Shown: positions 3,018-26,064 of the stretch, in pieces
Position numbering within the stretch: position 1 is the stretch's first letter
How the letters are laid out: each line of letters begins with the position of its first letter
Origin: a virus
Length of the DNA: 42,581 bases
Virus record (IMG/VR): IMGVR_UViG_3300020195_000059
Coordinates: 1 to 42,581 of that record
Strand: one strand, 5' to 3'
Position numbers and translations under genes: made by a program
The notes under the pieces: model-generated
The model's input: only the letters and a program-made list of their open reading frames with translations
Databases searched by the model: none
What the model was told of the DNA's origin: nothing

Positions 3018-3824
3018 ATGAAGGAACCCAAAATCATCAACGAGGCGACGAAGGTCGTCGCGGTCAAGACCATATCCGAACACCCTCGGAACCCTAATCG
3101 GAACGAACTCTCGCGGATCGTCGAGTCGATTGAAGAGGACGGCTTCTACGGAACGATCCTCGTTCAGAAGTCGACCGGCTACATTCTCGCAGGGAACCAC
3201 CGCTACCGGGCCGCGACTGCGGCAGGGCTCGACCGTGTCCCGGTCACCTTCGTCGACGTCGACGACGAGACCGCCCTCCGAATCCTCGTCAAGGACAACC
3301 GCCTCGCGGAGTTCGGGACGCGGGACGAGAAGACGCTCACGGAACTCCTAGGCGAACTCGCGGAAGGCTCCGGATTCGCCGGGACCGGCTTCACCCAAGA
3401 AGACTTCGACGAGATGGTCGCGGAGTTAAACGGGGAAGGCGGCGGCGGCGGAGAAGCGGTCGACCCGAACTACGCCCGGCAGGTCGTCGCTCCGATCTAC
3501 GAACCCCGAGGCGACCGGCCCGACGTCGCGGAGCTTGCCGACGTTACCAAGGCGGTCGCCCTCGTCGAGGAGATCGAAGCCTCGGACGCCGACGAGGAGC
3601 TAAAGACCTTCCTTCGGCTGGCGGCGGGCCGTCACGTCGTCTTCGACTACGAACAGATCGCGGAATACTATGCCCACGCTTCGGCTCCGGTCCAGCGGCT
3701 CATGGAGGCCTCGGCTCTCGTCATCATCGACTTCGAGTCGGCGGTCGAGAACGGCTTCGTTACGCTGACGAAGGCGATGGCCGACGCCTACGACGAGGAG
3801 CAGGAAGATGGCGAAGAAGCCTAA
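3018..3824 (+). CDS. ParB/Srx-fold protein in the head module
   Basis: A 268-residue protein with an AGGAG ribosome site just upstream. Residues 10-105 are a ParB N-terminal-like domain: 'ISEHPRNPN' near the start, then the signature 'LAGNHRYRAATAAGL', matching the G-x-H/R-R core that binds nucleotide in ParB/Srx folds. The C-terminal half is acidic and has no recognisable HTH, unlike plasmid ParB, so it is unlikely to be a segregation protein. ParB-fold proteins of this kind are often found near phage terminase, portal and DNA-modification genes. Here it overlaps a glycosyltransferase gene. Nuclease/NTPase activity and a link to DNA modification are inferences. Confidence 0.75.
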   Translation: MKEPKIINEATKVVAVKTISEHPRNPNRNELSRIVESIEEDGFYGTILVQKSTGYILAGNHRYRAATAAGLDRVPVTFVDVDDETALRILVKDNRLAEFGTRDEKTLTELLGELAEGSGFAGTGFTQEDFDEMVAELNGEGGGGGEAVDPNYARQVVAPIYEPRGDRPDVAELADVTKAVALVEEIEASDADEELKTFLRLAAGRHVVFDYEQIAEYYAHASAPVQRLMEASALVIIDFESAVENGFVTLTKAMADAYDEEQEDGEEA

Positions 3825-4686
3825 AAAGATCGTCTTCGGAGCCCTGATCCTAACCCACGGCCGAGCCGACAACGTCATCACGTTCAAGACGCTTCGGGCC
3901 TTCGGCTACACGGGGCCGATCCGGTTCGTCGTCGACAACGAGGACTCGCAGGTCGACCGCTACCGCGAACTCTTCGGAGCCGAGAACGTGATCGTCTTCG
4001 ACAAGGCCGCCGTCTCGGAGGGCTTCGACGAGGGCGACAACTTCGGGGACCGGCGGGCGATCATCTACGCCCGGAACGCTTCGTTCGAGATCGCGAAGGG
4101 GCTCGGCTGGACTCACTTCATTCAACTCGACGACGACTACGTCGACTGGCGATGGGTCTTCGCCTCCGACCGGACCTACGCCCACCCTCGGATTCGGAGC
4201 CTAGACCGAATCTTCGCCCTCCTGCTCGACTTCATGCTTGCGACCGGGAGCCTAACCGTCGCGATGGCGCAAGCGGGCGATTTCATGGGCGGTCAGAACT
4301 CGGGGAACATCAAGTCGATCAACCTCGGAATAAACGGGAAGCGGAAGGCGATGAACACGTTCATTTGCGACGTCGACCGGCCTATCGGCTTCGTCGGTCG
4401 TCTCAACGAGGACGTAAACACCTACGTTCGGAAGGGCTCGTTCGGGGAGCTTTTCTTCCAGATCAATCACGTCCGGATGACCCAGTTACAGACCCAGACG
4501 AACGAGGGCGGCATGAGCGAGATGTACCGGGAGTCCGGGACCTACGTCAAGAGCTTCTACTCGGTCCTCTACGCTCCCTCCTGCGTGAAGGTCTTCCGAC
4601 TTCCCTCGAACTTCCCTCGCTGGCATCACCGTGTAAGCTGGCGGAACGCGGTCCCTAAGATTCTCCGCGAGAGCGTGAAGAAATGA
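3808..4686 (+). CDS. Putative TET-associated-type glycosyltransferase (TAGT-like, GT-A fold)
   Basis: A 292-residue protein. The N-terminus 'LILTHGRADNVITFKTL' followed by 'FVVDNEDSQVDRYRELFG' and 'GDRRAIIYARNASFEIA' matches the start of a GT-A glycosyltransferase. A D-D-D motif at residues 108-110 (QLDDDY) is the metal/nucleotide-sugar site, and N200-E201-D202 in 'GRLNEDVNTY' is a candidate catalytic acid region. This layout is that of the TAGT family, described from phages that carry TET/JBP base oxidases and sugar-modified DNA. No TET or cytosine methylase lies in this window, so DNA as acceptor is inference; a capsid or other glycosylation role is possible. It overlaps the ParB-fold gene by 17 nt. 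Confidence 0.6.
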   Translation: MAKKPKKIVFGALILTHGRADNVITFKTLRAFGYTGPIRFVVDNEDSQVDRYRELFGAENVIVFDKAAVSEGFDEGDNFGDRRAIIYARNASFEIAKGLGWTHFIQLDDDYVDWRWVFASDRTYAHPRIRSLDRIFALLLDFMLATGSLTVAMAQAGDFMGGQNSGNIKSINLGINGKRKAMNTFICDVDRPIGFVGRLNEDVNTYVRKGSFGELFFQINHVRMTQLQTQTNEGGMSEMYRESGTYVKSFYSVLYAPSCVKVFRLPSNFPRWHHRVSWRNAVPKILRESVKK

Positions 4687-5015: not shown

Positions 5016-8000
5016 ATCCAAAGGGGACGATCTACGACGTCGTCGACAAGCAGAGGGCCGCGCTCCTCGCCCGGGAGTACGACGCCGTCAAGCGGATTGT
5101 CCGGGCCTACGAGACGGCGGAGGTCCGGGTCGAAAAGTCGATCCGGCTCTTTCAGGCGAAGATCGAAGCGGCGGCAGGGCTCGAACCGTCCTTGGCTTGG
5201 TACTACCAAGAGGCCCGTCTCGAAAACATCCTCCGCGAGATTCGGGGCCACCTCGACGAGTTCTCGAAGGACGCCTTAGAGTTCGCGTCGACGGGCCGGG
5301 CGGACGCCTACCAACTCGGGGCCGTCCATGCCCTACGCCTCGCAGAAGCTCAAGTGATCGGGGACGTGGCAGGGCTCCACGCTGGCGCGTTCGAGTCGGC
5401 TTCGGCTCTCCTCGCATCGGGGTCGCCTCTCAAGACGCTCTTCGACGAGATCGGGCCGACCGCTACGGTCGCGGCTCGGGGGCTCTTCGCTCAGGCCGTC
5501 GCGGAGGGCTGGAACCCGAGGAAGCTCGGGCGGGCGATGACGAACGAGATCGACAACCTCGCGAAGCTGCGGGCGGTCCTAATCGCTCGGACCGAGATGA
5601 TCCGGAACTACCGGATCGCGAACTCGCAGGTCTACGCCCGGAACGCGGACGTCCTCCGGGGCTGGCGATGGATGGCGGCGAAGACTCCGGCGACGTGCGC
5701 GATGTGTCTCGCCCTCGACGGCGAAATCTTCCCGACGTCGACGACCCTCTCGTCTCATCCCGCCTGTCGTTGCTCCATGCTCCCGCTACCGAAGACCGAC
5801 TTCGGCGGCCCTCAGCCTCAGCTAGGGGAGGACTACTTCCAGTCGCTCTCGGAGGGCGAACAGAACCGAATCCTCGGGAAGGGGAAGGCGGCTCTCTACC
5901 GGGACGGGAAGATGACGCTGAAGGATAACGTCCGCTGGAATGACCACCCCGACTGGGGCCGGTCTCCTGCTCCGAGGCGGCTCGGAGACCTCGTCGCGAA
6001 GTCGGCCTCGGGAACGCTTCCTTCTCAGCAGGGCTACCTTAAAATCTCAACCTTCGAGCCCCTCCCGGCGACGAACCTAGCGGACCTGCTCAAGGCGGCA
6101 GAAGCTAAGGCGAACGACCCGGTCGACAAGGCTCTCGAAGCATGGTCGAACCAACAGCTTTACCCGTCCGGCCACCGGAAGATTACGTTTCCGTCGACGA
6201 AGCCTCCGCCCTACAAGAAGCTCGTCAAGAAGCTCGATGGCCTCGACTCGACGATAGAGGAAGTCGAACTCAAGGACCTCGTCTCGACGCTCCCTTCGGC
6301 CCCTGCCGACAAGGTCGAGGAGATGATCCGGGCTCTCGGGGACGGCCCCGACCTACCGGTCGTCTTCCGCTCGGGAGAGAAGCTCTACATCCACAACGGC
6401 GAATCGGTCGCCCGCCTTCAGGCGAAGGCCCTCCTAGGTCAGACCCGGGCCTCGGTCCGGCTCTTCGACGGGGACGCTATCTCGGCGGCCCGGACCCCGC
6501 TCGACGACGCGAAGGAAGCCCTCGAAGCCTTGGGAGTCAAGACTGTCAAGGTTATTACCGGCGACGACGAGGAGGTCCTGCGGGCTCTCGAATGGACGAA
6601 GGCTCGAATAGAGGCAACCGGGGTCGTCCCGAAAGAGGTCTGGGTCGCCAGAGGCTCGGGCGGAACGGTTACGGCTAACGGTGAACTTATAATCGCGACC
6701 GAAATCATCGATATCGACGCGGTCGACGTCTTGACGGCCCTCTCTCAATCCTCGTTGACCGGAACGACTCCGACCGACGTCCTCAGGCTGAAGTCGACCG
6801 TCGCCCGGGTCTCTCTCGACCCGGTCGAGAACGTCGAGGCCGGACTCCTACGGACGAAGTTCGACGTCTCGACGAAGGGCTCGGGGGACCTGCTCCGGGA
6901 ATGGGGGGAGAACCGATACGACCTATTCTCGGTTCGGGCCTTCGAGAACTGGCAGATCGAAGACGCTCTCGAAGAGGCGATCATCCTTTACCGGCGCGGG
7001 GAATACCGGCTCGGCTCCCTGCCGCAGAAGATCGAAAAACAGTTCCTCGCGGACGCGGAGAAGATCATCGGGACGAAGAAGACGCTCCCGGCCTACTCCG
7101 ACTCGGAGAACTTCCTCTTCCACCAGACCGGGACTCAGGGAGGCTCGAACCCGGGCGGAACCTATCTCGGGCGGGACGGGGTCTCCCGCTACGTCAAGTT
7201 CTACGACAACGAGGAGCGGGGAATCGTCGAGAACATCGCCAACGCCCTCTACCGGGCGAACGGAATCGCGGTCCCGGACTCGGTCGTCTTCGACAACGGC
7301 GCGAAGAAGGCATTCGCGACGACGATCCTCAAGGACGGGAGGACGCTCCAAGCCCTCGGCGGGGTCGGTCAGGCAGATATCGCGGTCCTTCAGGATGCCT
7401 TCGACGGCTACGTCCTCGACGCCTTCCTCGCGAACTGGGACGTCGTCGGCCTCTCTGCCGATAACATGATGCTCGCGGGCGGGAAGGTCTACCGGATCGA
7501 CAACGGCGGGACGTTCATCTTCCGGACTCAGGGAGGCGACAAGCCGGATTCGCTCCTGCTCCAGTTCGAGGAGTTCTTTTCGCTCGGCTCGACGTCGTCG
7601 AAGGGCCATACCGGACAGTTCAAGCCGATCCTCAACCGGCTCGGCTATCCCTCGGTCGAGAACGCGGTCGGGGAACTCGAAAAGCAGACCAAGAAGCTCC
7701 TCCAGACCCTCGACGGGATCGCGACGACCGAAACGAAGTGGGTCACCTACTTCGAGCAGACCTCGCCCGGGCTCTCGGCGGCGACGAAGGAGCGTATGGC
7801 GAAGATGATGATCGCTCGACGGTCCCTCCTAGCCGACAAGGAGGCGAAGTTCGCGAAGGACGCTATCGAAGCGGCGAAGATATCGAAGGCTCGGGCCGCC
7901 CTCCGCGCGAAGGGGAAGAAGCCCCTAACGAAGACCGCCTTCGACAAGATTGTGAAGTCGAAGGAGGCGAACTGGGCCTTCTCGGGCCGGTCGACCAGCG

Positions 8001-8887
8001 AATACGACGATTGGCTCTCGCGGTCGGGGTCCGATCAAGCCTTCCTCCGAATGTCGGAGGACGCGAAGGCGGCGGCGAAATCGTACAGCAGCGGTTCCTA
8101 CGACGAAATCTTCAACCGGCCCCAGCGGGCGCACCGAAAGACAGGTACGCCGATCCCTCCCGACAAGAAGAAACTCATCGAAGCCCTCGAAGACGCTATC
8201 GCGGCGAATACGCGAGGTATCGACGGCGATATCCTCATCTCCCGGAAGCTCTCGGGAACCTCGACGGAAGCCCAATGGCACACCTTTACCGACAAGCACG
8301 TCGGGGTTGTTATCGGGGACTCGGCATTCCAGTCTACGGCGATGCATCCGGACGTTTGGGATGGAACCGTTCAGCTTCGGATTACGCTTCGCAAGGGAGA
8401 GCGGCGGTTCATTCCCCCGGGCCGCCGAGCCGCTAACGGAAACCACGGCTCGGAGGTCGAACTCATCCTCGGGAACGACATACTCTTCATCGTCAAGAAG
8501 GTTAGAAATGAACACGGGATCGTCATCCTCGAAGTTGAGGCGATCCCGGAGGGCTACACGATCCCGAAGGGAATGACGATCCTCTACTCGGTCGCGGAGG
8601 TCTTCGCCCGCAGGAAAGAGCCCGAGCCCTACTATCCGCCGGAACCGATCAAGGTCGGCGGAACCGTTCACGACTCCGGCCTAATCGAATCGGTCGACGA
8701 CCTCGCGGTCTCCCTATGCGCGAACTGTTCGAGGAAGATCGCAGGGGCCGCGACCTGTGACGCCTTCCGCGAGGGAATCCCTCTCGCGATCCTCTTCGGC
8801 CTTGCCGACCATCGCGAGAACCTACGCGGAGACCTCGGTCTCGCCTACGATCCGATTGATCCGGATGAGGAGATGTTGACGGTTTGA
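5012..8887 (+). CDS. Giant MuF head protein fused to ParB-like, kinase-like and ADP-ribosyltransferase domains
   Basis: A 1291-residue product. I prefer ATG 5012 (ATGA overlap, GGAG upstream) to GTG 5006. Residues ~90-255 are a MuF/SPP1 gp7-like minor head domain: 'RTEMIRNYR' at 193, C229-x2-C232 in 'CAMCLALDGEIF', then H249-x2-C252-x-C254. About 448-480 is a ParB-like segment (LPVVFRSGEKLYIHNG) lacking the usual histidines. About 700-840 is a PI3K/HipA-type kinase fold: a Gly-rich 'GGSNPGG' loop, K729 in YVKFY, E740, catalytic loop N808-W-D810 to D817-N818, and metal motif I-D830-N-G-G. About 1070-1170 is an ADP-ribosyltransferase: R1078, S1108-T1109, E1148-x-E1150. The tail has a C-x2-C...C 'GIPLAILFG' motif seen in phage head proteins. 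It is probably built into the capsid and may be ejected with DNA; toxicity is inferred. Confidence 0.8.
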   Translation: MNPKGTIYDVVDKQRAALLAREYDAVKRIVRAYETAEVRVEKSIRLFQAKIEAAAGLEPSLAWYYQEARLENILREIRGHLDEFSKDALEFASTGRADAYQLGAVHALRLAEAQVIGDVAGLHAGAFESASALLASGSPLKTLFDEIGPTATVAARGLFAQAVAEGWNPRKLGRAMTNEIDNLAKLRAVLIARTEMIRNYRIANSQVYARNADVLRGWRWMAAKTPATCAMCLALDGEIFPTSTTLSSHPACRCSMLPLPKTDFGGPQPQLGEDYFQSLSEGEQNRILGKGKAALYRDGKMTLKDNVRWNDHPDWGRSPAPRRLGDLVAKSASGTLPSQQGYLKISTFEPLPATNLADLLKAAEAKANDPVDKALEAWSNQQLYPSGHRKITFPSTKPPPYKKLVKKLDGLDSTIEEVELKDLVSTLPSAPADKVEEMIRALGDGPDLPVVFRSGEKLYIHNGESVARLQAKALLGQTRASVRLFDGDAISAARTPLDDAKEALEALGVKTVKVITGDDEEVLRALEWTKARIEATGVVPKEVWVARGSGGTVTANGELIIATEIIDIDAVDVLTALSQSSLTGTTPTDVLRLKSTVARVSLDPVENVEAGLLRTKFDVSTKGSGDLLREWGENRYDLFSVRAFENWQIEDALEEAIILYRRGEYRLGSLPQKIEKQFLADAEKIIGTKKTLPAYSDSENFLFHQTGTQGGSNPGGTYLGRDGVSRYVKFYDNEERGIVENIANALYRANGIAVPDSVVFDNGAKKAFATTILKDGRTLQALGGVGQADIAVLQDAFDGYVLDAFLANWDVVGLSADNMMLAGGKVYRIDNGGTFIFRTQGGDKPDSLLLQFEEFFSLGSTSSKGHTGQFKPILNRLGYPSVENAVGELEKQTKKLLQTLDGIATTETKWVTYFEQTSPGLSAATKERMAKMMIARRSLLADKEAKFAKDAIEAAKISKARAALRAKGKKPLTKTAFDKIVKSKEANWAFSGRSTSEYDDWLSRSGSDQAFLRMSEDAKAAAKSYSSGSYDEIFNRPQRAHRKTGTPIPPDKKKLIEALEDAIAANTRGIDGDILISRKLSGTSTEAQWHTFTDKHVGVVIGDSAFQSTAMHPDVWDGTVQLRITLRKGERRFIPPGRRAANGNHGSEVELILGNDILFIVKKVRNEHGIVILEVEAIPEGYTIPKGMTILYSVAEVFARRKEPEPYYPPEPIKVGGTVHDSGLIESVDDLAVSLCANCSRKIAGAATCDAFREGIPLAILFGLADHRENLRGDLGLAYDPIDPDEEMLTV

Positions 8888-9201
8888 CGATTCTTGAGCA
8901 GGTTGAGGCGACTCTTCGAGAGTCGAGGAACCGAGCGATCCTACAAAGGGTGTCCGTCAACATCGCCAAGTTCTCCTACGTCGTCGAACGGGCCGAGCGG
9001 AACGCGGGAGAACTAGGCTGGACGGCCCACTTCTCCGCCGAGGCGGACGGGAAGACGGTCGGCGGGCTAAGGCTCGTCGTCGTCACGCCGGAGCCCCTCT
9101 CCTTCGACCGGGCCTACACTTGGCCCATGCTCTCGGTCTTTCCGTGGTGGGCCGAATACCGGCGCGAGAACGTCGTCGTCCGGGTCTCGTCGACGTCATA
9201 A
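8884..9201 (+). CDS. Small protein coupled to the MuF effector, 105 aa
   Basis: It starts at a TTG overlapping the MuF stop (TTGA), with GAGGAG at 8867-8872 as the ribosome site. The product is soluble, with a basic helical N-terminus ('TLRESRNRAILQRVSVNIAKF') and a beta-rich C-terminal half. No family is recognised. Its tight coupling to a multi-domain effector makes a chaperone or immunity role possible, by analogy with polymorphic toxins, but nothing in the sequence proves it. Confidence 0.55.
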   Translation: MTILEQVEATLRESRNRAILQRVSVNIAKFSYVVERAERNAGELGWTAHFSAEADGKTVGGLRLVVVTPEPLSFDRAYTWPMLSVFPWWAEYRRENVVVRVSSTS

Positions 9202-10675: not shown

Positions 10676-11797
10676 ATGCCACTCAACGAACAAACCTACT
10701 ACAACCTCGCGAAGCTCACTCCGCTCATTCTGGCGGATCGGGCATTCACGCTTGCTCGACGCTTTCAGGCATCCTCGACGTTTCTTAAGGGTTCGCCTCT
10801 CGGCTTAACTACGACCGGGGTCTCCGCCGTCCAGACGCTTACCGTTACGGGTACGCCGACCGGCGGAACCTTCCGGCTCTCTTTCCGTGGAATCAAGACG
10901 GCGGCTATCGCCTACAACGCGGCGGCGGCTACCGTTCAGGCGGCTCTCGAAGCGATTGTTTCGGTCGGGGCCGGGAACATCGTCGGCTCCGGCGGAGCCC
11001 TGCCGGGAACGGCGGTTATTCTGACGTTCGCGGGAACTCTCGCGTTGGGTCCTCAGCCCTTGGTCGTCTTCGAGACGGCGGACAACCTGTTCACAGGTGG
11101 GACGCTTCCGACGGGTTCGGTCGCTTCGACCACGGTCGGTATCGCGGCTGGTGCGCTGAAGGCGTGGAACGGAGCCCTACTCGCCAACCCGACGACGGGT
11201 CCGGCGGTTACGGCGGAGGCCGGCGGAACGAACGCGGTCGGCCTGTACCTCGCTCAAATGGCATGGATTACCGGTAACGGCGAGACTCTTCCGAGTCTTC
11301 CCGTCGCGGTCGTCGTCGCGAATGCCCCCATCAACCGTATTCGGTTCGCGGCTATCTCCGCAGGAAATACGCCAGCGGGCGCGACCGGTATTCGGTACTA
11401 CGTCAACGGGGCTATGGTTCGGGATGTCGCGGTTACGACCGGGATCGCTCAGACCGACGTCGACGCCATGCCGACGACCGGTGTAACGCCGAAGGGTCCG
11501 CAGACCGAGAACACGGCTTGGACGGCTTCGGACGGCTCTCACGTCCTTCGCGGATTCGCTCTTCTCGACATTACGACGGACGTCGAAGGCCGCGTGACGT
11601 TCTCGTCCGGGGACTCGACGGGTAACGATCAATCCGCGACTTTGGCGGACGCCCCGTACTTCGTCGAAGGCATCTTCCGCATGGGCGACCTTGCGGGGAT
11701 CACGGCCGCGAACGGGCCTCAACTCAGCCGCTTCGGACGCTTCTTGTCCGGGGCCTACACCGACTCGGAGGGTATCTACCGCCTCGGCCTCCTCTAA
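10676..11797 (+). CDS. Capsid decoration / head fibre-like protein with inserted beta domain
   Basis: A 373-residue protein just before the major capsid gene, the usual place of a decoration protein. The N-terminus (TYYNLAKLTPLILADRAFTLARRF) is helical. Residues ~50-160 are a beta domain, 'VQTLTVTGTPTGGTFRLSF...AYNAAAATVQAALEAI...VGSGGALPG', of a type that recurs in phage structural proteins; a close copy lies in the tail tube gene. The C-terminal part (200-373) is beta-rich and ends in 'RFLSGAYTDSEGIYRLGLL'. It has no catalytic motif. It probably sits on the capsid surface; decoration versus a minor capsid role cannot be told apart from sequence alone. Confidence 0.6.
   Translation: MPLNEQTYYNLAKLTPLILADRAFTLARRFQASSTFLKGSPLGLTTTGVSAVQTLTVTGTPTGGTFRLSFRGIKTAAIAYNAAAATVQAALEAIVSVGAGNIVGSGGALPGTAVILTFAGTLALGPQPLVVFETADNLFTGGTLPTGSVASTTVGIAAGALKAWNGALLANPTTGPAVTAEAGGTNAVGLYLAQMAWITGNGETLPSLPVAVVVANAPINRIRFAAISAGNTPAGATGIRYYVNGAMVRDVAVTTGIAQTDVDAMPTTGVTPKGPQTENTAWTASDGSHVLRGFALLDITTDVEGRVTFSSGDSTGNDQSATLADAPYFVEGIFRMGDLAGITAANGPQLSRFGRFLSGAYTDSEGIYRLGLL
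10965..11007 (+). repeat. 43-bp direct repeat, copy 1
   Basis: These 43 bases are identical to 16631-16673 in the tail tube gene. Both copies encode the same 'GAGNIVGSGGALPG' segment in the same reading frame, within homologous beta domains. Identity at silent positions exceeds that in the flanking parts of the domain, suggesting recent exchange or gene conversion. Confidence 0.9.
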
Positions 11798-11828: not shown

Positions 11829-12845
11829 ATGAGCAACTTCGTCTATCCAACAGCGGCAGACCTTCGAGACATCGAACAGGTCAAGGCCCCTCTTCTCACG
11901 ATGACCGATCCTATCTTCGAGATCATGCCGATCCGAAATACGGAAAACTTCATCGTCATGTGGGAGCAGAAGGACAACTTCACCGGCCTTCAGGGACTTC
12001 GCGGTCTCGACGGCCAGCCCGCCCGCGTTAACGCGGTCGGCGAGAAGCGGTTCCAGATGACTCCCGGAGTCTACGGAGAGTTCTCCGCTATCACCGAAGA
12101 GGAACTGACAATTCGGCGACAGATGGGTTCGTGGGCTACGCCCATCGACCTTTCCGACATTGTGGTGGAGCGGCAGGATCAGCTACTCGGACGTCGAATC
12201 GACCGGATTCGACAGATCGGTTGGACCGTCCTTCAGGGTAGCTTCGCCGTCTCCGGTCTTCAGGGGATCGTCCACGCGGACGCCTTCCCGGTTACCCGGT
12301 ACACGGCGGGAGTCACTTGGGCGACCCGAGCGACCGCGACTCCGCTTCAGAACTTCCGCGACGTCCAACTCTTCGAGGAGGGCCGTTCGGCTTCGTTCGG
12401 TTCGGAGGCTAAGGCCTTTATGAACCGTCGGACCGCGAACGATATGGTCGCGAACCTCAACACCAACGACCTCGCAGGTCGTCGGACGTCGGGGCTCAAT
12501 AGCGTTCTTACGGTAGACGAGATCAACCGGGTTATGCTCGGGGAAGGTCTGCCGCAGGTCCGTATCCATAACGACGGCTACTTCACGGACGCCGGAACGT
12601 GGACGCCTCTCATCCCGAACAATCGGGTAATCGTGGTCGGCCACCGTCCGAACGGTACGATCATGGAATACCAGATGGTCCGGAACGCTACGAACCCGAA
12701 CATGGAGCCCGGAGCGTATACCCGAGTCTGGGACTCGGCAGAAGTCGACGCCGGTCGACCGCCTCGCCGGATCGAACTCCACGACGGACACAACGGCGGC
12801 CCGGCCCTCTTCTTCCCGGGCGATATCGTCAATATGACGGTCTAA
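11829..12845 (+). CDS. Major capsid protein (phage capsid protein E-like)
   Basis: 338 residues from ATG 11829, with GGGAGGAG upstream; the longer in-frame start at 11691 is within the preceding gene. Typical features: 'LLTMTDPIFEIMPIRNTENFIVMWEQKDNFTGLQGLRGLDG' near the N-terminus, then 'MTPGVYGEFSAITEEELT', and a C-terminal 'PNNRVIVVGHRPNGTIMEYQMVRN' beta segment. These match the HK97-fold family E of capsid proteins. It is followed by a strong hairpin, as is common after highly expressed capsid genes. Confidence 0.8.
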   Translation: MSNFVYPTAADLRDIEQVKAPLLTMTDPIFEIMPIRNTENFIVMWEQKDNFTGLQGLRGLDGQPARVNAVGEKRFQMTPGVYGEFSAITEEELTIRRQMGSWATPIDLSDIVVERQDQLLGRRIDRIRQIGWTVLQGSFAVSGLQGIVHADAFPVTRYTAGVTWATRATATPLQNFRDVQLFEEGRSASFGSEAKAFMNRRTANDMVANLNTNDLAGRRTSGLNSVLTVDEINRVMLGEGLPQVRIHNDGYFTDAGTWTPLIPNNRVIVVGHRPNGTIMEYQMVRNATNPNMEPGAYTRVWDSAEVDAGRPPRRIELHDGHNGGPALFFPGDIVNMTV

Positions 12846-14953: not shown

Positions 14954-15472
14954 GTGGCAATGCGGACGGCTGTTACGGTCGAAAAGAACGAACTCCCGGC
15001 CCTCGCGAAGAAGGCGGCCCGCGAGATCGTCGACGCGGCGGCCCGCGAGATCGCGGGCGAGGTCCTGCAGCGGTCGATGGTTTACCTCGAACGGCAGGTC
15101 TACACCCGTCCGAATGTGCAGGTCACAGCCGACAAGATGGGGACCGTCGACGAACCGACCGGAGCCCTCGTCAACTCCGGCTACGTGCGGACGTTCACGG
15201 GAGAGCTTCCGGCAGGGGCTCCGGACGAAGCGGCGGCTATGTCGTCGGCTAGGGCGAAGAACGAAGACGTCGTCTTCGGTCAGGCCCCTCCCGGCCCGGT
15301 CCGGCTCGGTCAAGCACAGGTCCTTTTCGCCGTCGAATACGGCCTCTACGTCGAGATGGGGACGATCCTCGGCATGGTCGACCGGCCCTACCTGCGACCG
15401 GCGGCGGACGAGGTCCAACTTTTCGCCCGCGACTTCGTCGTCGCCAAGCTCCGGGAGGCGGGCTTTTCCTAA
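14954..15472 (+). CDS. HK97 gp10-like tail assembly protein
   Basis: 172 residues from GTG 14954; ATG 14960 is the alternative, but GTG is better spaced from GAGG at 14940. N-terminal helix 'LPALAKKAAREIVDAAAREIAGEVLQRS', then 'TGALVNSGYVR' and a C-terminal 'VEYGLYVEMGTILGMVDRPYLRPAADE', which is the signature of the HK97 gp10 family ('Y..yvE.GT..m..rPFl.pA'). This family acts at the head-tail joint or in tail completion. Confidence 0.7.
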   Translation: MAMRTAVTVEKNELPALAKKAAREIVDAAAREIAGEVLQRSMVYLERQVYTRPNVQVTADKMGTVDEPTGALVNSGYVRTFTGELPAGAPDEAAAMSSARAKNEDVVFGQAPPGPVRLGQAQVLFAVEYGLYVEMGTILGMVDRPYLRPAADEVQLFARDFVVAKLREAGFS

Positions 15473-18060
15473 TGCCGCAGAAGACGCTAACCCCGACCCT
15501 CGCCGTCGACGTCGACTCGAAATGGCAGGACGATTCCCTCGCCCTAGGCTGGGACGTGAACGGCTATGGAGCCCGCTCGACCGACCATACGGGGACGCCT
15601 CTCTTCCTCGAAGCCATGACCGGTCGCTTGGACATGTCTCCGCAGGACGCGCCAGTCGGCTTCGAGGTCGAGTTCGTCGCGAGAGTTACCGGGGGAGCCC
15701 CGGCTTCGCAGGTTATTGTTACCGCGTTCTACGACCTTGGCTCTGCTAAGACCGTGACGCGGGCTCGGAAGCGGGTCGGTTGGGTCAACGGCCCCGGAGC
15801 GAACGAGTTCATCATCGAAGCCTCGAACGATGGGACGACTTGGGTCAACGCCTATACCGGCGCACCATTGTCCGCCGACCCGACGACGGGCTTCTTCCAA
15901 TGGATCGCGGAGAAGGACGAGGCAAGCTTCATCACGGCTAATCCCTACCGATACTGGCGGACGTGGGTCGTCTGCAACGGCGGGACCGACCCGGCGGAGG
16001 CTCGGATCGGGGACTTCCGCCTCTACGTCGCAGGGGTCGAGGACGCCGGGACCGAGATGCGATACGGCCACCGAAGCGGGTCGACTCCGCACAACTGGGG
16101 AGAGGGGACGGTTACGACCCTCTTCAACGACGTCGGTATTGGCGACAATACGACTTCGGTCGGCGGGACCGTCGGAACCGGAGGAACGGTCAACGTCGGG
16201 CTCGGGCTCGACGGGGTCGCGAAGGGCTCGACGAAGGCTCTGGCGATTACCAACTCTTTCGCGACCTACACGCTCGGAGATACAAACGACCTCTTCGGGT
16301 CGTCTTGGACTATTGAGCAGGTTCGCTCGGGCCGTTTCGCGGCTACTTTTCAGGCGGCTTTGAGCGGGCCAGAGGTAGAAGTCGACGCGGCTCGGGTCAT
16401 AATCTACTACGCCTACTACGGAGGAAGACGGATGCCACTACGAGAACAGGTACGACAGCAGATCATCATCGGGCGCGAGGTCGGCACAAATGCCGTCCAG
16501 ACTCTCACGGTTACGGGGACGCCCACGGGTGGAACCTTCCGCCTCACCTTCCAAGGGATTGAGACGGCGAACATCGCCTACAACGCGGCGGCGGCGGCGG
16601 TTCAGTCCGCTCTCGAAGCTATCTCGTCCATCGGGGCCGGGAACATCGTCGGCTCCGGCGGAGCCCTGCCGGGTACTCCGGTGGTCCTGACGTTCGCGAA
16701 GAACCTCGCGGCGGAGCCTCTGCCTCTTATTACGGTTACGACTGCGGCCTTTACGGGTGGTACGTCTCCTGCGGGCGCGGTCGCTACGACTACCGCCGGA
16801 GTTCGAGCGGTTGGCGCGGGCGCGACGGCGGCGGTACGACTTCGGCACACCCGGATTCAGCCTCAGCCAAATCCCGAGTTCCTTTCCCACCGTCCGGCGG
16901 GCGAGAAGCTCACGAATCATCATGTCCTTATCAAGGAGGCTTCGGACGGCCCCTTCGAGGGGAGTCCGACCTACGACGAGATGGGCTGGCTCCTTCAGGG
17001 CCTGATCGCCCGCCCGAATACGGCTACCCTTCAGGCGTCGGTCGCGTACCGGCACGTCTTCGCTCTCGACAACCGAATCCGCGACGGAATCGCGACCTAT
17101 CAGGCCGAGTACGGCGACCAGTTCGCCCGGGCTCACCGGATCAAGGGCGCGGTTGTTAACGCTATCGATATCGCTCTCCGACAGGACGGGATCGACCTAG
17201 GCGGGAGCATCTTCGCGAAGGCGGTCGAGGACGGGATCACCATGAACCCCGGGGCCGCGACCGTTCAGACGCTTACCCAGTCCGGGTCGGGGAACTTCCG
17301 GCTCCGCTGGAAGGGGCAGGAGACCTCAGATATCGCGGCCTCGGGGTCTCTTGCGGCGACGGATATTCAGACGGCTCTCCGGGCTCTCGCGGGGATCGCG
17401 TCTTCGACCGCTCTCACGGTTTCCGGCTCGGCTGGAGGCCCGTTCACGATCACATTCGCGAACACGGCTGGCGGACCGTTCCTCGGGTTCCCCCAGCCTC
17501 TCCTAGAATCCAGAACCATCTCCGGAACTCCGGTGGTGTCGATGGCGATGACGACGCGAGGCGGCTACACGGACTATCCGGGGGTGGTCGTCCTGCCGCG
17601 ACACGTCGAGTTCTTCCTCACGCCGACTCTCGCGAGTCTCGCGTCCTCGAAGCTCTCGGACGCCTTCGCTACCGGCTTCTCGGTCGGGAACAAGGCGAAC
17701 CCGGTCTTTAACCTCGACCGGGCGGAGACGTCGTGGTTCGACTACGCGGAGGGGACTGACCTTGACGTGAAGTTCTCGCTACTCGCCCAAGCCCAGAGCC
17801 CGGCTATGTCGTTCCTGACACAGGCTCGGAGCGATACGATCCTCTTCCTCCGAATCCTCGCCACGGGACCGCTGATCGGGGCTTCGGCCTTCCCTCATCG
17901 GCTCCAGATCGACTGTCCGGTAAAAATCTCGAACTTCGGGCCGTTCTCGGAGAATCAGAACGTGTACGCCTTCGAGTACGAACTCGACGGAGTGCAGGAC
18001 GACGCGACGAATACGAACCTCGTCCTCACGCTCGACAACGGGGTCGCCAACTACAACTAA
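15472..18060 (+). CDS. Tail tube protein with N-terminal discoidin-like extension and two inserted domains
   Basis: An 862-residue frame. Residues 1-320 include a beta domain with 'NEFIIEASNDGTTWVNAY' and 'YRYWRTWVVCNGG', resembling F5/8 type C (discoidin) carbohydrate-binding modules. At residue 321 there is an in-frame ATG (16432) with GGAGGA at 16420-16425, and 'MPLREQVRQQIIIGREV' is a typical tail tube N-terminus. The tube core follows: 'EASDGPFEGSPTYDEMGWLLQGLI' and a C-terminal 'FENQNVYAFEYEL'-type end. It is interrupted by two beta insertions (about 335-440 and 600-700) related to the domain in the decoration protein. The full-length and internally started (542 aa) forms may both be made. 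Confidence 0.7.
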   Translation: MPQKTLTPTLAVDVDSKWQDDSLALGWDVNGYGARSTDHTGTPLFLEAMTGRLDMSPQDAPVGFEVEFVARVTGGAPASQVIVTAFYDLGSAKTVTRARKRVGWVNGPGANEFIIEASNDGTTWVNAYTGAPLSADPTTGFFQWIAEKDEASFITANPYRYWRTWVVCNGGTDPAEARIGDFRLYVAGVEDAGTEMRYGHRSGSTPHNWGEGTVTTLFNDVGIGDNTTSVGGTVGTGGTVNVGLGLDGVAKGSTKALAITNSFATYTLGDTNDLFGSSWTIEQVRSGRFAATFQAALSGPEVEVDAARVIIYYAYYGGRRMPLREQVRQQIIIGREVGTNAVQTLTVTGTPTGGTFRLTFQGIETANIAYNAAAAAVQSALEAISSIGAGNIVGSGGALPGTPVVLTFAKNLAAEPLPLITVTTAAFTGGTSPAGAVATTTAGVRAVGAGATAAVRLRHTRIQPQPNPEFLSHRPAGEKLTNHHVLIKEASDGPFEGSPTYDEMGWLLQGLIARPNTATLQASVAYRHVFALDNRIRDGIATYQAEYGDQFARAHRIKGAVVNAIDIALRQDGIDLGGSIFAKAVEDGITMNPGAATVQTLTQSGSGNFRLRWKGQETSDIAASGSLAATDIQTALRALAGIASSTALTVSGSAGGPFTITFANTAGGPFLGFPQPLLESRTISGTPVVSMAMTTRGGYTDYPGVVVLPRHVEFFLTPTLASLASSKLSDAFATGFSVGNKANPVFNLDRAETSWFDYAEGTDLDVKFSLLAQAQSPAMSFLTQARSDTILFLRILATGPLIGASAFPHRLQIDCPVKISNFGPFSENQNVYAFEYELDGVQDDATNTNLVLTLDNGVANYN
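16420..16434 (+). promoter_or_regulatory. Internal ribosome binding site and start for the short tail tube form
   Basis: GGAGGA (16420-16425) lies 6 nt before an in-frame ATG (16432) inside the large tail tube frame. The codons from this ATG match the usual tail tube N-terminus, so this site likely makes a separate 542-residue tube protein. Confidence 0.6.
16631..16673 (+). repeat. 43-bp direct repeat, copy 2
   Basis: Identical to 10965-11007 in the decoration gene and in the same reading frame of the homologous beta domain. Confidence 0.9.
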
Positions 18061-18128: not shown

Positions 18129-18518
18129 ATGCCCAGTCTAAAGTCAGTAATGAAGCCCCTCACGACGGTCGCCGTCGAGTTCGGGGCCGAGACCGTAAAG
18201 GTCGTCTACCGTCCGCAGTATCTCACGCCGAAGTTTGAGGCCCAGCTAAAGGACCTCAACGACGAGGAGAAGACGACCGAGGCCTTCCTCGCTCTCTTTA
18301 CCTCCCTTGTCGCAGGGTGGGACCTAACCAACGACGAGTTTGGAGAGGTCATTCCGCTTACGAACGAATCGCTCTGGGAGGTTCCTTACGAGATCATGGG
18401 CGAGATCATTACCAAGGTACAGGAAGACGGCCACCCAAACCCGACGACGGAACCGAACTCCGGCGATTCATCGCTACCGGCGGATGGCTCGGTTCCGTAC
18501 CCGAGTGGTACGCCCTAA
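18129..18518 (+). CDS. Tail assembly chaperone, zero-frame product (G-like)
   Basis: 129 residues, between the tail tube and the tape measure, the fixed place of gpG/gpGT-type chaperones. The N-terminal half is beta/alpha ('TTVAVEFGAETVKVVYRPQYLTPKFE') and the last 25 residues after the slippery site are Pro/Ser-rich and low complexity. The zero-frame protein is expected in excess; the frameshift product extends into the -1 frame. Chaperones bind the tape measure during tail assembly and are not part of the virion. Confidence 0.7.
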   Translation: MPSLKSVMKPLTTVAVEFGAETVKVVYRPQYLTPKFEAQLKDLNDEEKTTEAFLALFTSLVAGWDLTNDEFGEVIPLTNESLWEVPYEIMGEIITKVQEDGHPNPTTEPNSGDSSLPADGSVPYPSGTP

Positions 18519-21682: not shown

Positions 21683-22324
21683 ATGTCTTTTCATAACGTG
21701 GTCTTCCCGGAGGATTACTCGCGAGGGGTCGTTGGGGGGCCGGAGTTCCGGACAACTGTAGTAGCCACGGGTTCCGGTTACGAACAGCGGAACGTTGATT
21801 GGGCGACAGCGCGTGGACGCTGGGACCTGTCCCGGCTCCTCTACGACCTAACAACGCGAGACGAGACTATCGCCTTCTTCCGGGCTCGGAAGGGGCGAGG
21901 TCACTCGTTCCTCTTCAAGGACTGGGCCGACTACAACGTCGGCATGGTGTGGAACCCGACGACGAAGGTTCTCGACCACTCCGGGAGCCACAATTTCGCG
22001 AACGGGACCGGGGCCGTATCGACCTTCCAACTCGTCCGAATCTACGACAGCGGCGGCTATACGGAGACGCGGAAGATCACGCGGCCTAAGACGGGCCTCA
22101 AAATCTACAAGAACGGGGCCGAACAGACTCAGCCCGGGCAGGTTACCGTCGACCTAGCGACCGGGATCGCTACGTTCGTGACGCCTCCTCCGCTCGGGCA
22201 TACCGTAGGCTGGAGCGGGGAGTTCTACGTCCCGGTCCGATTCGACACCGACAGCCTTTCGATGGAGTACATGAGCCCGACGGTCGGAGACGCTCCGCTT
22301 CCCGTCGTCGAGGTCCGAGAATGA
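21683..22324 (+). CDS. Distal tail protein, DUF2460 (GTA ORF g12-like)
   Basis: 213 residues. 'FHNVVFPEDYSRGVVGGPEF' and 'RRGH-SFLFKDWADYNVG' match DUF2460, a distal tail protein family of GTA-like tails. The following genes occur in the same order as in Rhodobacter GTA (g12, g13, g14, g15). It forms the tail tip ring attached to the tube. Confidence 0.85.
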   Translation: MSFHNVVFPEDYSRGVVGGPEFRTTVVATGSGYEQRNVDWATARGRWDLSRLLYDLTTRDETIAFFRARKGRGHSFLFKDWADYNVGMVWNPTTKVLDHSGSHNFANGTGAVSTFQLVRIYDSGGYTETRKITRPKTGLKIYKNGAEQTQPGQVTVDLATGIATFVTPPPLGHTVGWSGEFYVPVRFDTDSLSMEYMSPTVGDAPLPVVEVRE

Positions 22325-23202
22325 AGACCCTCGACGCTCCGACCCTCGCTCACTTCGCCCAAGAGACTACGACTCTCTGCTTGGCTTGGTTGGTTACGCG
22401 GCGGGACGGGGTCAGCTTCGGCTTTACCTCCCATGTTGCGGACCTCGTATGGACCGACCCGGTCTCGCCGTTTACGGTCTGGACGCTCCTCGCGAATACC
22501 GGGGCCGGGGTCTCAAATCTCGCGACGTCGGTCGGGCGCGGGATCGACAATCTGACGGCTTGGGGGACGATCAACTCCTCCGCGATCACGACCGAAGACC
22601 TACTTCGAGGGCTTTACGACGACGCCAGCGTTCGGGTCCTCGCCATCAACTATGAGGACCCGACCATCTTCGTCGAACTCGTTCGGGGTCGGCTCGGAGA
22701 AGTCAAAGCCGGGCGGCGGGCCTTCGAGGTCGAGGTCCGCTCCCTTCTCCAGCGGGCGGCCCAGAACGTCGGGAAGGTCTGCTCTCCTCTCTGCCGCGTT
22801 AAGCTCCTCGGGGACGCGGAGTGTACCGTTGCCCTCGGACCCTTTACGTTCGCGGGCCAGACGGTCGACGGGGTGACTTCGAGGTCGGTCTTTACCACGT
22901 CCTCCGCCGGGGTTATCGGGAAGGCGGCCTTCTACTTCGCCTATGGGGTCCTGACGTGGACGTCCGGAGCGAATATCGGGAAGTCGGTCGAGGTCCGGAG
23001 CCACAATACTTCGACCCCATGCCAACTAACCATAACGGAAATCATGCCGTTCGCCATCCAGATCGGGGACGCCTTTACGGTTATCGCCGGGTGCGACCGG
23101 CGGCTCGAAACCTGCCGCGATAAGTTCTCGAACGTCCTCAACTTTCGCGGTGAACCCTACATCCCCGGAGCCGATACGGTCCTAAAGGTCATCTCCGCAT
23201 GA
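22321..23202 (+). CDS. Tail hub protein, DUF2163 / BR0599-like (GTA ORF g13-like)
   Basis: 293 residues, ATGA-coupled to DUF2460. 'LCLAWLVTRRDGVSFGFTSHVADL' at the N-terminus and the C-terminal 'AGCDRRLETCRDKFSNVLNFRGEPYIPG' are family signatures. The conserved cysteines in the middle ('VCSPLCRVKLLGDAEC') suit the [4Fe-4S]-like or disulfide site known in this hub family. It forms part of the tail tip hub. Confidence 0.85.
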   Translation: MKTLDAPTLAHFAQETTTLCLAWLVTRRDGVSFGFTSHVADLVWTDPVSPFTVWTLLANTGAGVSNLATSVGRGIDNLTAWGTINSSAITTEDLLRGLYDDASVRVLAINYEDPTIFVELVRGRLGEVKAGRRAFEVEVRSLLQRAAQNVGKVCSPLCRVKLLGDAECTVALGPFTFAGQTVDGVTSRSVFTTSSAGVIGKAAFYFAYGVLTWTSGANIGKSVEVRSHNTSTPCQLTITEIMPFAIQIGDAFTVIAGCDRRLETCRDKFSNVLNFRGEPYIPGADTVLKVISA

Positions 23203-23681
23203 GAGCTATAGCCGAAACGATCATCCCTCTCGCTAGAGCATGGATCGGGACGCGGTACGTCCATCAGGCACGCGGCCCAAAGGGGCCGGAAGGCGGGGTC
23301 GACTGTGTCGGGCTCCTTATCGGGGTCGCCGTCGAACTCGGGCTTATCGAGGCCGACTATGACCCGACCGGCTACGACTGGGAGACCGACGGCTCTCAAC
23401 TCCGGCAGGAACTCTTGAAGTGGGCCGATATCGTCGCCCTGTCCGACGATCCGAAGGACGCGGACTTCTGGCTAGAAGTCCTTCAGCAGGGCGATATCGC
23501 GGTCTTCAAGATCGTCGGGCTCCCTCAGCATACGGGCTTCGTCTCTAAGATCGACTACGGAACCTCGGGGACCTACCCCGGCCTTATTCACGCCTACAAC
23601 CCCGCCGGGAAGGTCGTCGAACACAATCTCGACGACCGCTGGTTCCGACGTATGGCCGAACTCTGGAGGCTCCGTGGCTGA
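23199..23681 (+). CDS. NlpC/P60 cell-wall peptidase (GTA ORF g14-like)
   Basis: 160 residues. Catalytic Cys in 'VDCVGLLIG', His in 'QHTGFVS' and a further His in 'LIHAYNPAGKVVEH' fit the NlpC/P60 Cys-His-(polar) arrangement. In GTA-like tails this enzyme is carried in the tail tip and cuts peptidoglycan peptides during DNA entry. It overlaps DUF2163 (ATGA) and the hub gene (GTGGCTGA). Confidence 0.85.
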   Translation: MRAIAETIIPLARAWIGTRYVHQARGPKGPEGGVDCVGLLIGVAVELGLIEADYDPTGYDWETDGSQLRQELLKWADIVALSDDPKDADFWLEVLQQGDIAVFKIVGLPQHTGFVSKIDYGTSGTYPGLIHAYNPAGKVVEHNLDDRWFRRMAELWRLRG

Positions 23682-26064
23682 ACTAATGCTTGGGATCGCA
23701 GGGATCGCCGTCGCAGGACTCCCGGGTATGGGAGTAACGGCTATTACGGGCTTCCAGATCGGGGTCACGCTCGGGACGCTTCTCTTCCCTCCGCAGGGTC
23801 CGAAGCTCGACCGGGGCCGCGTCGACGAGATGAAGATTCAAGGGGCCGGGCAAGGTCAGCCGATTCCTTTGATCTACGGTCGAAACCGGACCGCAGGAAC
23901 GATTATCTGGGCGACCGGGCTCCGGGAGCGGACGTCTACGTCGAGTTCGGGAGGGAAGGGCGGCGGAGGCGGGGCTACGACCACCGACTACAGCTACTCG
24001 ACCTCCCTCGCCGTCTACATCTGCGAGGGAACGCTCTCGAAGGTCCGGCGGATTTGGGCGAACGAGAAGGTCATCTACGATTGGCGGACCGGCGGCTCTC
24101 CGACCTACGCTTCGTGGATCGACTCCTCCAAAGTCCGAATCTATCTCGGGAACCAGATGACGGCGGACGCGGCGATAGAGGCCGATAAAGGCGCGGGGAA
24201 CGTCCCGGCCTTCAAGGGTATCGCTTACGTCGTCTTCGAGGCTCTCGAACTCGCGGAGGTCGGCGGTCAAATCCCGAACTTCACCTTCGAGGTCGAATCC
24301 GATCACGCCAATCTTCAAGTCGCTTTGAACGACCTCGCGGCTCGGAGCGGCCTCGCCTCCGCCGACTACGACTTCTCGGCTCTCGCGGCCTACCCGACTC
24401 GGGGGATGGTGGTCGCGGCTCGGACCGAGGCGGCCCGGGTCATGGACGCCTACGCGAAGGCGAACTGGTTCGAGATCGTCGAGACCGGCGGTCAAATCAA
24501 GTCGGTCATTCGGACCGGGGTCTCGGTCGCTAAGATTCCGGCGGACGATATCGGCGCGGCGGAGCCCGGGGCCGAGAGTCAATCCTTCGTCCTTACGACC
24601 CGGGCGGAGGAGACCGAGCTTCCTCTGAGCTTCGCCGTCAATTACCAGTCCGAGGCTCTCGACTTCCTGCAATGGTCCCAGACGGCGCGGCGGTCGGTTC
24701 GCTGGAGCGATCAGCAGGAGAACGTAAGCTTCTCCCTCGGGCTGGCGGACGAATACGCCCGCTACCTTGCCGACTCCCTGCTCATGGAGGCTTGGGCGGC
24801 TCGGTCCTCGCACACGTTCACGCTTCCTTATAAGTACATGAGGCTCGACCCCGGCGACGTGGTCACGATCCCGGACGAGGGCGGAGAGGATCGGGTCGTC
24901 CGAATCTTGGAGATGTCGATGGGGCTCCTCGCACAGATCGAAGTAACGGCGGTCGACGATGATCCCGTCATCTACCTCGACCCGGGGCTCCCGGCATCTA
25001 TCCCGACCGGCGGCGGGGCCGGAGTCGACTCGACGACTACCGCCGACCTACTCTCCTTCGAGGCGAACGCGGTCGTCGACTCTCTCGCAGACGCTCCCCA
25101 ACTCGGCTTCGCGGCGGGCCGGACGTCGGCGGGCTGGAAGGGCGGAGAAGCCCAGATCGACCCTAGGCTACAGCGATACGCGGGCGGCTTTAATCGTCGG
25201 GTCGCCCTCTTCTACTCGTCCTCGACGTTCGGGTACTCGGCGGCTGGCGCGACCGGACTTCTCGGGAACGTCGGTGGCTTCGCCCTTCCCTACGGCCTCG
25301 ACACGGTCAATACGGTTCGGGTCGTCTTTACGAACGGGGTTCCGGAGTCGATCACCTACGCCGAAATGGTGACCGAGGGGCGGAACCTAGCGGTCCTCGG
25401 GAAGGAGATCATCCAGTTCCAGACCGCGACCCTCATCTCCGGCTCGACCTACGAACTCTCGAACCTGCTCCGCTACCGGCGCGGGAGCGATTACCTCCTC
25501 ACGCTCGAAGCGATGGGGGCGGTCGTTCACGCCTCCCTCGAAGGTTTCATTCTCATTACCGAAAAGGTAAAGAACTATCCATACTCGCCGTCGGGTATCG
25601 GGACCGTCGAGAACTTCCGGATCATCGAAACCGGGAAAGACTACAGCGGGGGCCTTCCCAGCTACGGAGAGCCTCTGACGATGGGAGGAGACAGTCGGAA
25701 GCCATACGGCCCCTGCGACCTCCGCTATAGCGGCGACAGATCGGGAGGAGACGCGGACGTCATCGTTTCGTTCAAGCGGCGGGTCCGGAAGAAGGGCGAC
25801 CTCTACTCCGGCGACGACGCTCCGCTCGACGAGAGTTCCGAGGGCTACAAGGTCGAGATTTGGGACACGGGTCTAACGGGCCTGATCGCGACCTACTCGC
25901 ACACGTCCGGGGATTGGACCTACACTATCGCGAATCAGACGACGGACGGGGTTAACGCTTCGGCCTTCGCCATCGTTTTTTACCAGACATGCTCGGAGCC
26001 CGGCATACTTTTCGGCTGGCCTTCGTTCCCGAAGACCGTATCTCTCGGCCCGGACGTCCCATAA
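23674..26064 (+). CDS. Tail hub / host-attachment protein (GTA TIM-barrel-like, Phage-tail_3)
   Basis: 796 residues from GTG 23674, overlapping the NlpC/P60 stop. N-terminal membrane-like segment 'AGIAVAGLPGMGVTAITGFQIGVTLGTLLFP', then 'GQGQPIPLIYGRNRTAGTIIWATGL' and a Gly-rich loop, typical of the GTA g15 megatron/hub family. The central 'YLADSLLMEAWAARSSHTFTLPYKYMRLDPGDVV' is the Phage-tail_3 domain. The C-terminal part is beta-rich and likely contacts the fibres. It is shorter than the 1300-residue GTA version: the N-terminal TIM barrel appears to be missing or reduced. Confidence 0.75.
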   Translation: MAELMLGIAGIAVAGLPGMGVTAITGFQIGVTLGTLLFPPQGPKLDRGRVDEMKIQGAGQGQPIPLIYGRNRTAGTIIWATGLRERTSTSSSGGKGGGGGATTTDYSYSTSLAVYICEGTLSKVRRIWANEKVIYDWRTGGSPTYASWIDSSKVRIYLGNQMTADAAIEADKGAGNVPAFKGIAYVVFEALELAEVGGQIPNFTFEVESDHANLQVALNDLAARSGLASADYDFSALAAYPTRGMVVAARTEAARVMDAYAKANWFEIVETGGQIKSVIRTGVSVAKIPADDIGAAEPGAESQSFVLTTRAEETELPLSFAVNYQSEALDFLQWSQTARRSVRWSDQQENVSFSLGLADEYARYLADSLLMEAWAARSSHTFTLPYKYMRLDPGDVVTIPDEGGEDRVVRILEMSMGLLAQIEVTAVDDDPVIYLDPGLPASIPTGGGAGVDSTTTADLLSFEANAVVDSLADAPQLGFAAGRTSAGWKGGEAQIDPRLQRYAGGFNRRVALFYSSSTFGYSAAGATGLLGNVGGFALPYGLDTVNTVRVVFTNGVPESITYAEMVTEGRNLAVLGKEIIQFQTATLISGSTYELSNLLRYRRGSDYLLTLEAMGAVVHASLEGFILITEKVKNYPYSPSGIGTVENFRIIETGKDYSGGLPSYGEPLTMGGDSRKPYGPCDLRYSGDRSGGDADVIVSFKRRVRKKGDLYSGDDAPLDESSEGYKVEIWDTGLTGLIATYSHTSGDWTYTIANQTTDGVNASAFAIVFYQTCSEPGILFGWPSFPKTVSLGPDVP

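Follow-up and report, generated by a model that had tools for sequence, protein, structure and literature searches.

We identified a tail tube gene that probably yields two proteins from one reading frame by means of two starts, in a 42,581-base stretch of DNA from a virus record (the window): a plain tube protein of 542 aa, and an extended form of 862 aa that would co-assemble with it as a minority component and be displayed on the outside of the tail as an adhesin. Under the favoured mechanism, ribosomes ending the upstream neck gene would reinitiate at 15472, probably through translational coupling, and make the 862-aa tube protein with its 320-aa front extension; ribosomes loading at a strong, unfolded site before 16432 would make the plain 542-aa protein. 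The plain form would be the bulk of the tube, and fewer extended subunits would co-assemble with it, their extensions pointing outward in an accessory adhesin role. That the two forms are both made and co-assemble, the proportion between them, the outward position of the extension, and its binding of glycans are all things that we infer, and on balance we lean toward a tail decorated by N-terminal adhesin domains on some of its tube subunits, through dual initiation in one frame.

The genes of the window are arranged as in a siphovirus: portal, head genes, capsid, neck, tail tube, chaperone, tape measure, and GTA-like tail-tip genes. The tube gene sits between a Neck1-like gene and the chaperone and tape measure genes (a G/GT-like chaperone at 18129, and the tape measure at 18742). 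The neck gene (tail completion, Neck1-like; 14954-15472, plus strand) lies directly upstream of the tube frame, matches phrog_5 (E 1.9e-8), and is 70% identical to its counterpart in the related contig L002. Several other genes of the window deserve a short description. A glucosyltransferase-like protein is encoded at 3808-4686 (phrog_842, beta-glucosyl-HMC-alpha-glucosyltransferase, E 1.6e-62) beside a ParB-like gene, between the portal and the head genes, odd company for a structural block. The capsid frame is listed from TTG 11691 and contains an ATG at 11829 with a very strong Shine-Dalgarno (SD) match (-11.3 kcal/mol), where the major capsid protein probably begins. The GTA-like tail tip (21683-26064) includes a hydrolase-like protein and a match to megatron at E 2e-108 that nevertheless stays far under the equivalog cut-off; the INPHARED matches of the megatron-like protein are mainly to alphaproteobacterial phages, at identities of no more than about 31%.

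The whole tube frame extends from ATG 15472 to 18060 on the plus strand, is free of internal stops, and has ATG 16432 in frame as codon 321; the coordinates and lengths (862, 320, and 542 residues) given in an earlier note on this DNA were all exact. Scans of viral contigs and genomes in the collections searched found only one close relative, L002 (IMGVR_UViG_3300049847_000068), whose homologous frame is open over 1067 codons (6001 to 9201), with the internal Met shared and no stop separating the two parts. Relatives with a stop between the two parts, which would have pointed to a separate gene, were thus not found, the sole extension-bearing relative being open across the junction. A stop lost through sequencing error is rejected as well, because this second contig is also open there. 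No programmed frameshift was found where the tube gene ends; both parts share one stop-free frame, so the tube gene is not of the frameshift kind, and the earlier note's proposal of an in-frame extended tube gene with an internal start, made otherwise than by SPP1-type frameshifting, agrees with this single frame and with an internal start kept by selection (see below).

The window and L002 are 75% identical in the tube and 51% identical in the extension. Their nonsynonymous and synonymous divergences are dN 0.46 and dS 2.1 for the extension, and dN 0.19 and dS 2.6 for the tube (dN/dS about 0.2 and about 0.07, respectively); synonymous sites are saturated (dS > 2). By these values selection acts at the protein level on both parts, more weakly on the extension than on the tube, and the fusion of the two parts and the conservation of each as protein can be regarded as established at the sequence level. 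Since only two members are known, conservation of the junction and of the internal start rests on a single pairwise comparison. In the more distant, plain relatives the extension is absent: the tube frame closes within about 34 codons 5′ of its start, the sequence before it being just the 3′ part of an unrelated gene.

The plain tail tube part (16432-18060, plus strand; residues 321-862 of the frame) matches PHROG major tail protein families, in part via an Ig-like domain common among phages, and gave only local matches in INPHARED, in its Ig-like regions. For comparison we used the plain proteins at the tube position in distant contigs (L006, L007, L009, L010, L011, and L027; the complete ones are about 332-343 aa long). 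Profile-profile alignment (hhalign) of the 542-aa part with four of these tube-position proteins gave a probability of 99.1% (E 1.5e-18), and in the MAFFT alignment the first residues of the plain tubes fall on M321 (MPLREQVRQQIIIGRE opposite MADRFLVSEVVQVGIE). The plain tubes of distant phages therefore align from residue one by both methods, which bears out the claim that the usual tail tube N-terminus begins at ATG 16432. The structure model of the tube is of moderate confidence (pLDDT 55) and lies nearest to the tubes of T5 (pb6) and SH-Ab15497, its best PDB matches in Foldseek (E 1.5e-4 and 3e-4), so that a duplicated, T5-like tube fold is likely. The tube also contains two Ig-like inserts on the plus strand, at approximately 16492-16815 and 17257-17571, both of which fall in gaps of the plain tubes. 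The first matches Ig-like regions of the Bxb1 tail and capsid; it is also homologous to the second (E 3e-5), and each half of the probably duplicated fold holds one of them. The Ig-like domain of the first insert is also found (E 3e-39) in a 373-aa protein encoded directly upstream of the capsid gene (10676-11797), and likewise in L002; this is perhaps a head decoration protein, which would give head and tail a decoration domain in common.

The internal ribosome site (16420-16434, plus strand) consists of GGAGGA at 16420-16425, a 6-nt spacer, and ATG 16432. It had been described as near-perfect, and it is indeed the best in-frame SD of the frame, ranking first among 22 in-frame start codons; the internal Met of L002 also ranks first, among 35. 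The L002 counterpart is spelled differently (GGGAG, with a 7-nt spacer) and so retains the function in other letters, and the residues before the Met differ as well (YGGRR in the window, YGSSK in L002). The mRNA from -30 to +40 around 16432 has a folding energy of -5.8 kcal/mol, against a mean of -22.3 kcal/mol for the frame, an openness matched by 0.12% of codon positions; in L002 the corresponding values are -4.3 kcal/mol against -17.0 kcal/mol, with 0.28% of positions as open. GC3 drops directly after the internal start in both phages.

As a null model we used synonymous codon shuffles (4000 per phage) that held protein and codon usage constant. The observed openness was reached in 0 of 4000 shuffles in the window (P 0.007 in L002), and SD strength and openness jointly in 0 of 4000 in each phage. 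SD strength by itself gave P 0.009 in L002 and P 0.19 in the window, where it is not unusual given the amino acids; it was dropped as a stand-alone proof for the window, and the case is carried by the openness of the mRNA and by conservation. Inside the main frames of the window there are 158 in-frame ATGs, and 16432 alone combines a strong SD with an open site; in the relative's 20.6-kb stretch L014, where the limits applied were looser than in the window, one of 226 plus-strand ATGs passed, and it is the counterpart of 16432. Judged on these comparisons, selection on the internal start is established, because SD, spacing, and open mRNA persist in other letters despite saturated synonymous sites.

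The upstream start (15453-15474, plus strand) has GGGAGG at 15453-15458 and a 13-nt spacer before ATG 15472, which overlaps the stop codon of the neck gene (TAATG). In L002 the upstream start adjoins the neck stop (TAAAATG) with an SD spacer of 10 nt, and the first residues are kept (MPQKTLTPT in the window, MPTKTLVPT in L002; consensus MPxKTLxPT). Taken together, these features make it credible that the upstream start is real. In the window its site is more folded than the internal one, which, with the long spacers (13 and 10 nt), suggests a coupled, lower-yield start. In L002 the upstream and internal sites differ little in openness, so that dominance of the internal start is not a given in that phage.

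The N-terminal extension (15472-16431, plus strand, 320 aa) had no match above threshold in PDB, Pfam, PHROG, or NCBIfam, and INPHARED gave zero matches to the extension or to the long protein. Residues ~79-187 (15706-16032, plus strand) are discoidin-like by motif (F5/8 type C, galactose-binding), an assignment that we treat as tentative: the sole Pfam match in this region, PF22633 (a galactose-binding F5/8C family), is co-located in the two phages at 15.9 and 14.6 bits, below the cut-off of 27.8, and AlyQ is a weak PDB match (E 0.36). Residues 1-78 and ~196-317 form other segments, and a second domain (16051-16431, plus strand), 46% identical to L002 and without a family match, reaches to the Met of the tube. 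The earlier description of the extension as discoidin-like and carbohydrate-binding can thus be kept, at sub-threshold strength, for residues ~79-187; the rest of the extension is different. The discoidin assignment is weak, but consistent across two divergent phages, and we consider it plausible. An AlphaFold model of the extension, built from two sequences, reached a pLDDT of 34 and was therefore left out of the fold searches; given the sub-threshold matches and this failed model, sugar binding by the extension is a guess only, if a fair one. In L002 an insert of about 195 residues (L002:6211-6810) divides the first part of the extension; it is lectin-like by eye, and family and PDB searches with it returned no match. 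The quicker divergence of the extension and this domain-sized insert fit an exposed, host-facing module.

The closest parallel to the predicted pair of proteins is phage SPP1, in which one tube gene gives two product lengths. Its plain and extended tube proteins, gp17.1 and gp17.1*, co-assemble at a 3:1 ratio; the extension of the latter is a C-terminal FN3 domain of 87 aa, reached by a +1 frameshift at the stop codon, and has been proposed to contact cell-wall carbohydrates (PMC8718954, PMC6316719). Unlike SPP1, where the extension is C-terminal and made by frameshifting, the window would add a 320-aa N-terminal extension from a second start in the same frame. The next-closest parallel differs in the same two respects: MTP-TpeX of the 936 lactococcal phages is a longer, minority tube form made by frameshifting, with a C-terminal carbohydrate-binding module that binds host cells (PMC6669499). 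Listeria phages A118, A500, and PSA also make longer, minority tail protein forms through frameshifting rather than through a second start (PMC5009743). Ig-like domains on the tube surface are shared with lambda gpV, T5 pb6, and YSD1; there, however, a fixed C-terminal domain is carried by every subunit, whereas the tube of the window has its Ig-like domains inside the fold and its extra module at the N-terminus. In-frame dual starts are known from the phage lysis genes lambda S and SPP1 24.1 and 26, with an internal start that has its own ribosome site (PMC6316719), and the lysis gene lysA of Ms6 is reported to have an in-frame dual start too (PMC3111421). Unlike the tube gene, these precedents are all lysis genes, and the forms of SPP1 24.1 and 26 differ by only 9 or 2 residues; the open-access literature searched yielded no tube protein made from a second start.

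The subunits of the T5 tube form trimeric rings, and their N-terminus takes part in ring stacking (PMC8718954). By analogy, a bulky N-terminal extension might hinder tube assembly, so that the tail may accept extended subunits only where they are few, or only at one of its ends. The latter case is the main rival to our reading: both forms would again be made, but the extended one would be a low-copy ring or cap confined to a single site, be it the neck end, the first ring, or the tail tip, with its bulky N-terminus limiting further stacking. We give this a small but appreciable chance. In its favour, the T5 N-terminus contributes to contacts between rings, and no tubes form when it is deleted (PMC8718954); moreover, only a short linker joins the tube to the last extension domain. 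The sequence, however, carries no positional signal, and in the known mixed tubes (SPP1, 3:1) the extended form is a large share. It is distinctly unlikely that the 862-aa form alone is made, all subunits being extended and the internal ribosome site being a relic from before the fusion. The unbroken frame would allow it, and fixed decorations are known from the lambda and T5 tubes, but a relic should have decayed by now, synonymous sites being saturated, whereas each phage retains an SD, its spacing, and the open mRNA, spelled in its own letters. Cleavage of the long form near the junction, which would release the extension as a separate protein, is more improbable still: the conservation boundary is sharp and the Met of the window follows a basic GGRR, but the residues at the junction differ between the phages (GGRR and GSSK), and an internal ribosome site would be superfluous for cleavage. 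Least probable of all is a plain tube only, with the upstream frame open by chance or because a stop was lost to a sequencing error, for the junction of L002 is also open and the extension evolves as a protein (dN 0.46, dS 2.1), even if distant relatives as a rule have plain tubes.

Tube variants made through frameshifting are already known from SPP1, Listeria, and 936 phages, and in the best-studied mixed tubes (SPP1 and 936) the frameshift lies near the 3′ end of the gene and adds C-terminal domains. What would differ in the window, as predicted, is the mechanism (a second start) and the end of the protein that is extended (the N-terminus). If two starts are indeed used, a mixed, decorated tail can be reached with an ordinary translation signal and no frameshift, and the tube N-terminus, an aid to ring stacking in T5, can bear more than 300 residues; dual initiation, which we slightly favour, would then join programmed frameshifting and fixed fusion as a third way of decorating a tube. 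The gene also carries a warning for annotation, as a gene caller would report one 862-aa tube protein here and overlook the probable main product of 542 aa. Downstream of the tube gene, the frame of the tail chaperone (18129-18518) runs on in the -1 frame to 18682 (..YLGVPPWELAEQ..), and this continuation is conserved in L002. A slippery heptamer in the proper frame is present at 18434-18440 (C CCA AAC; C CCA AAA in L002). The chaperone probably uses a frameshift of the lambda G/GT type; from its sequence, this phage thus appears to employ both devices, a frameshift in the chaperone gene and two starts in the tube gene.
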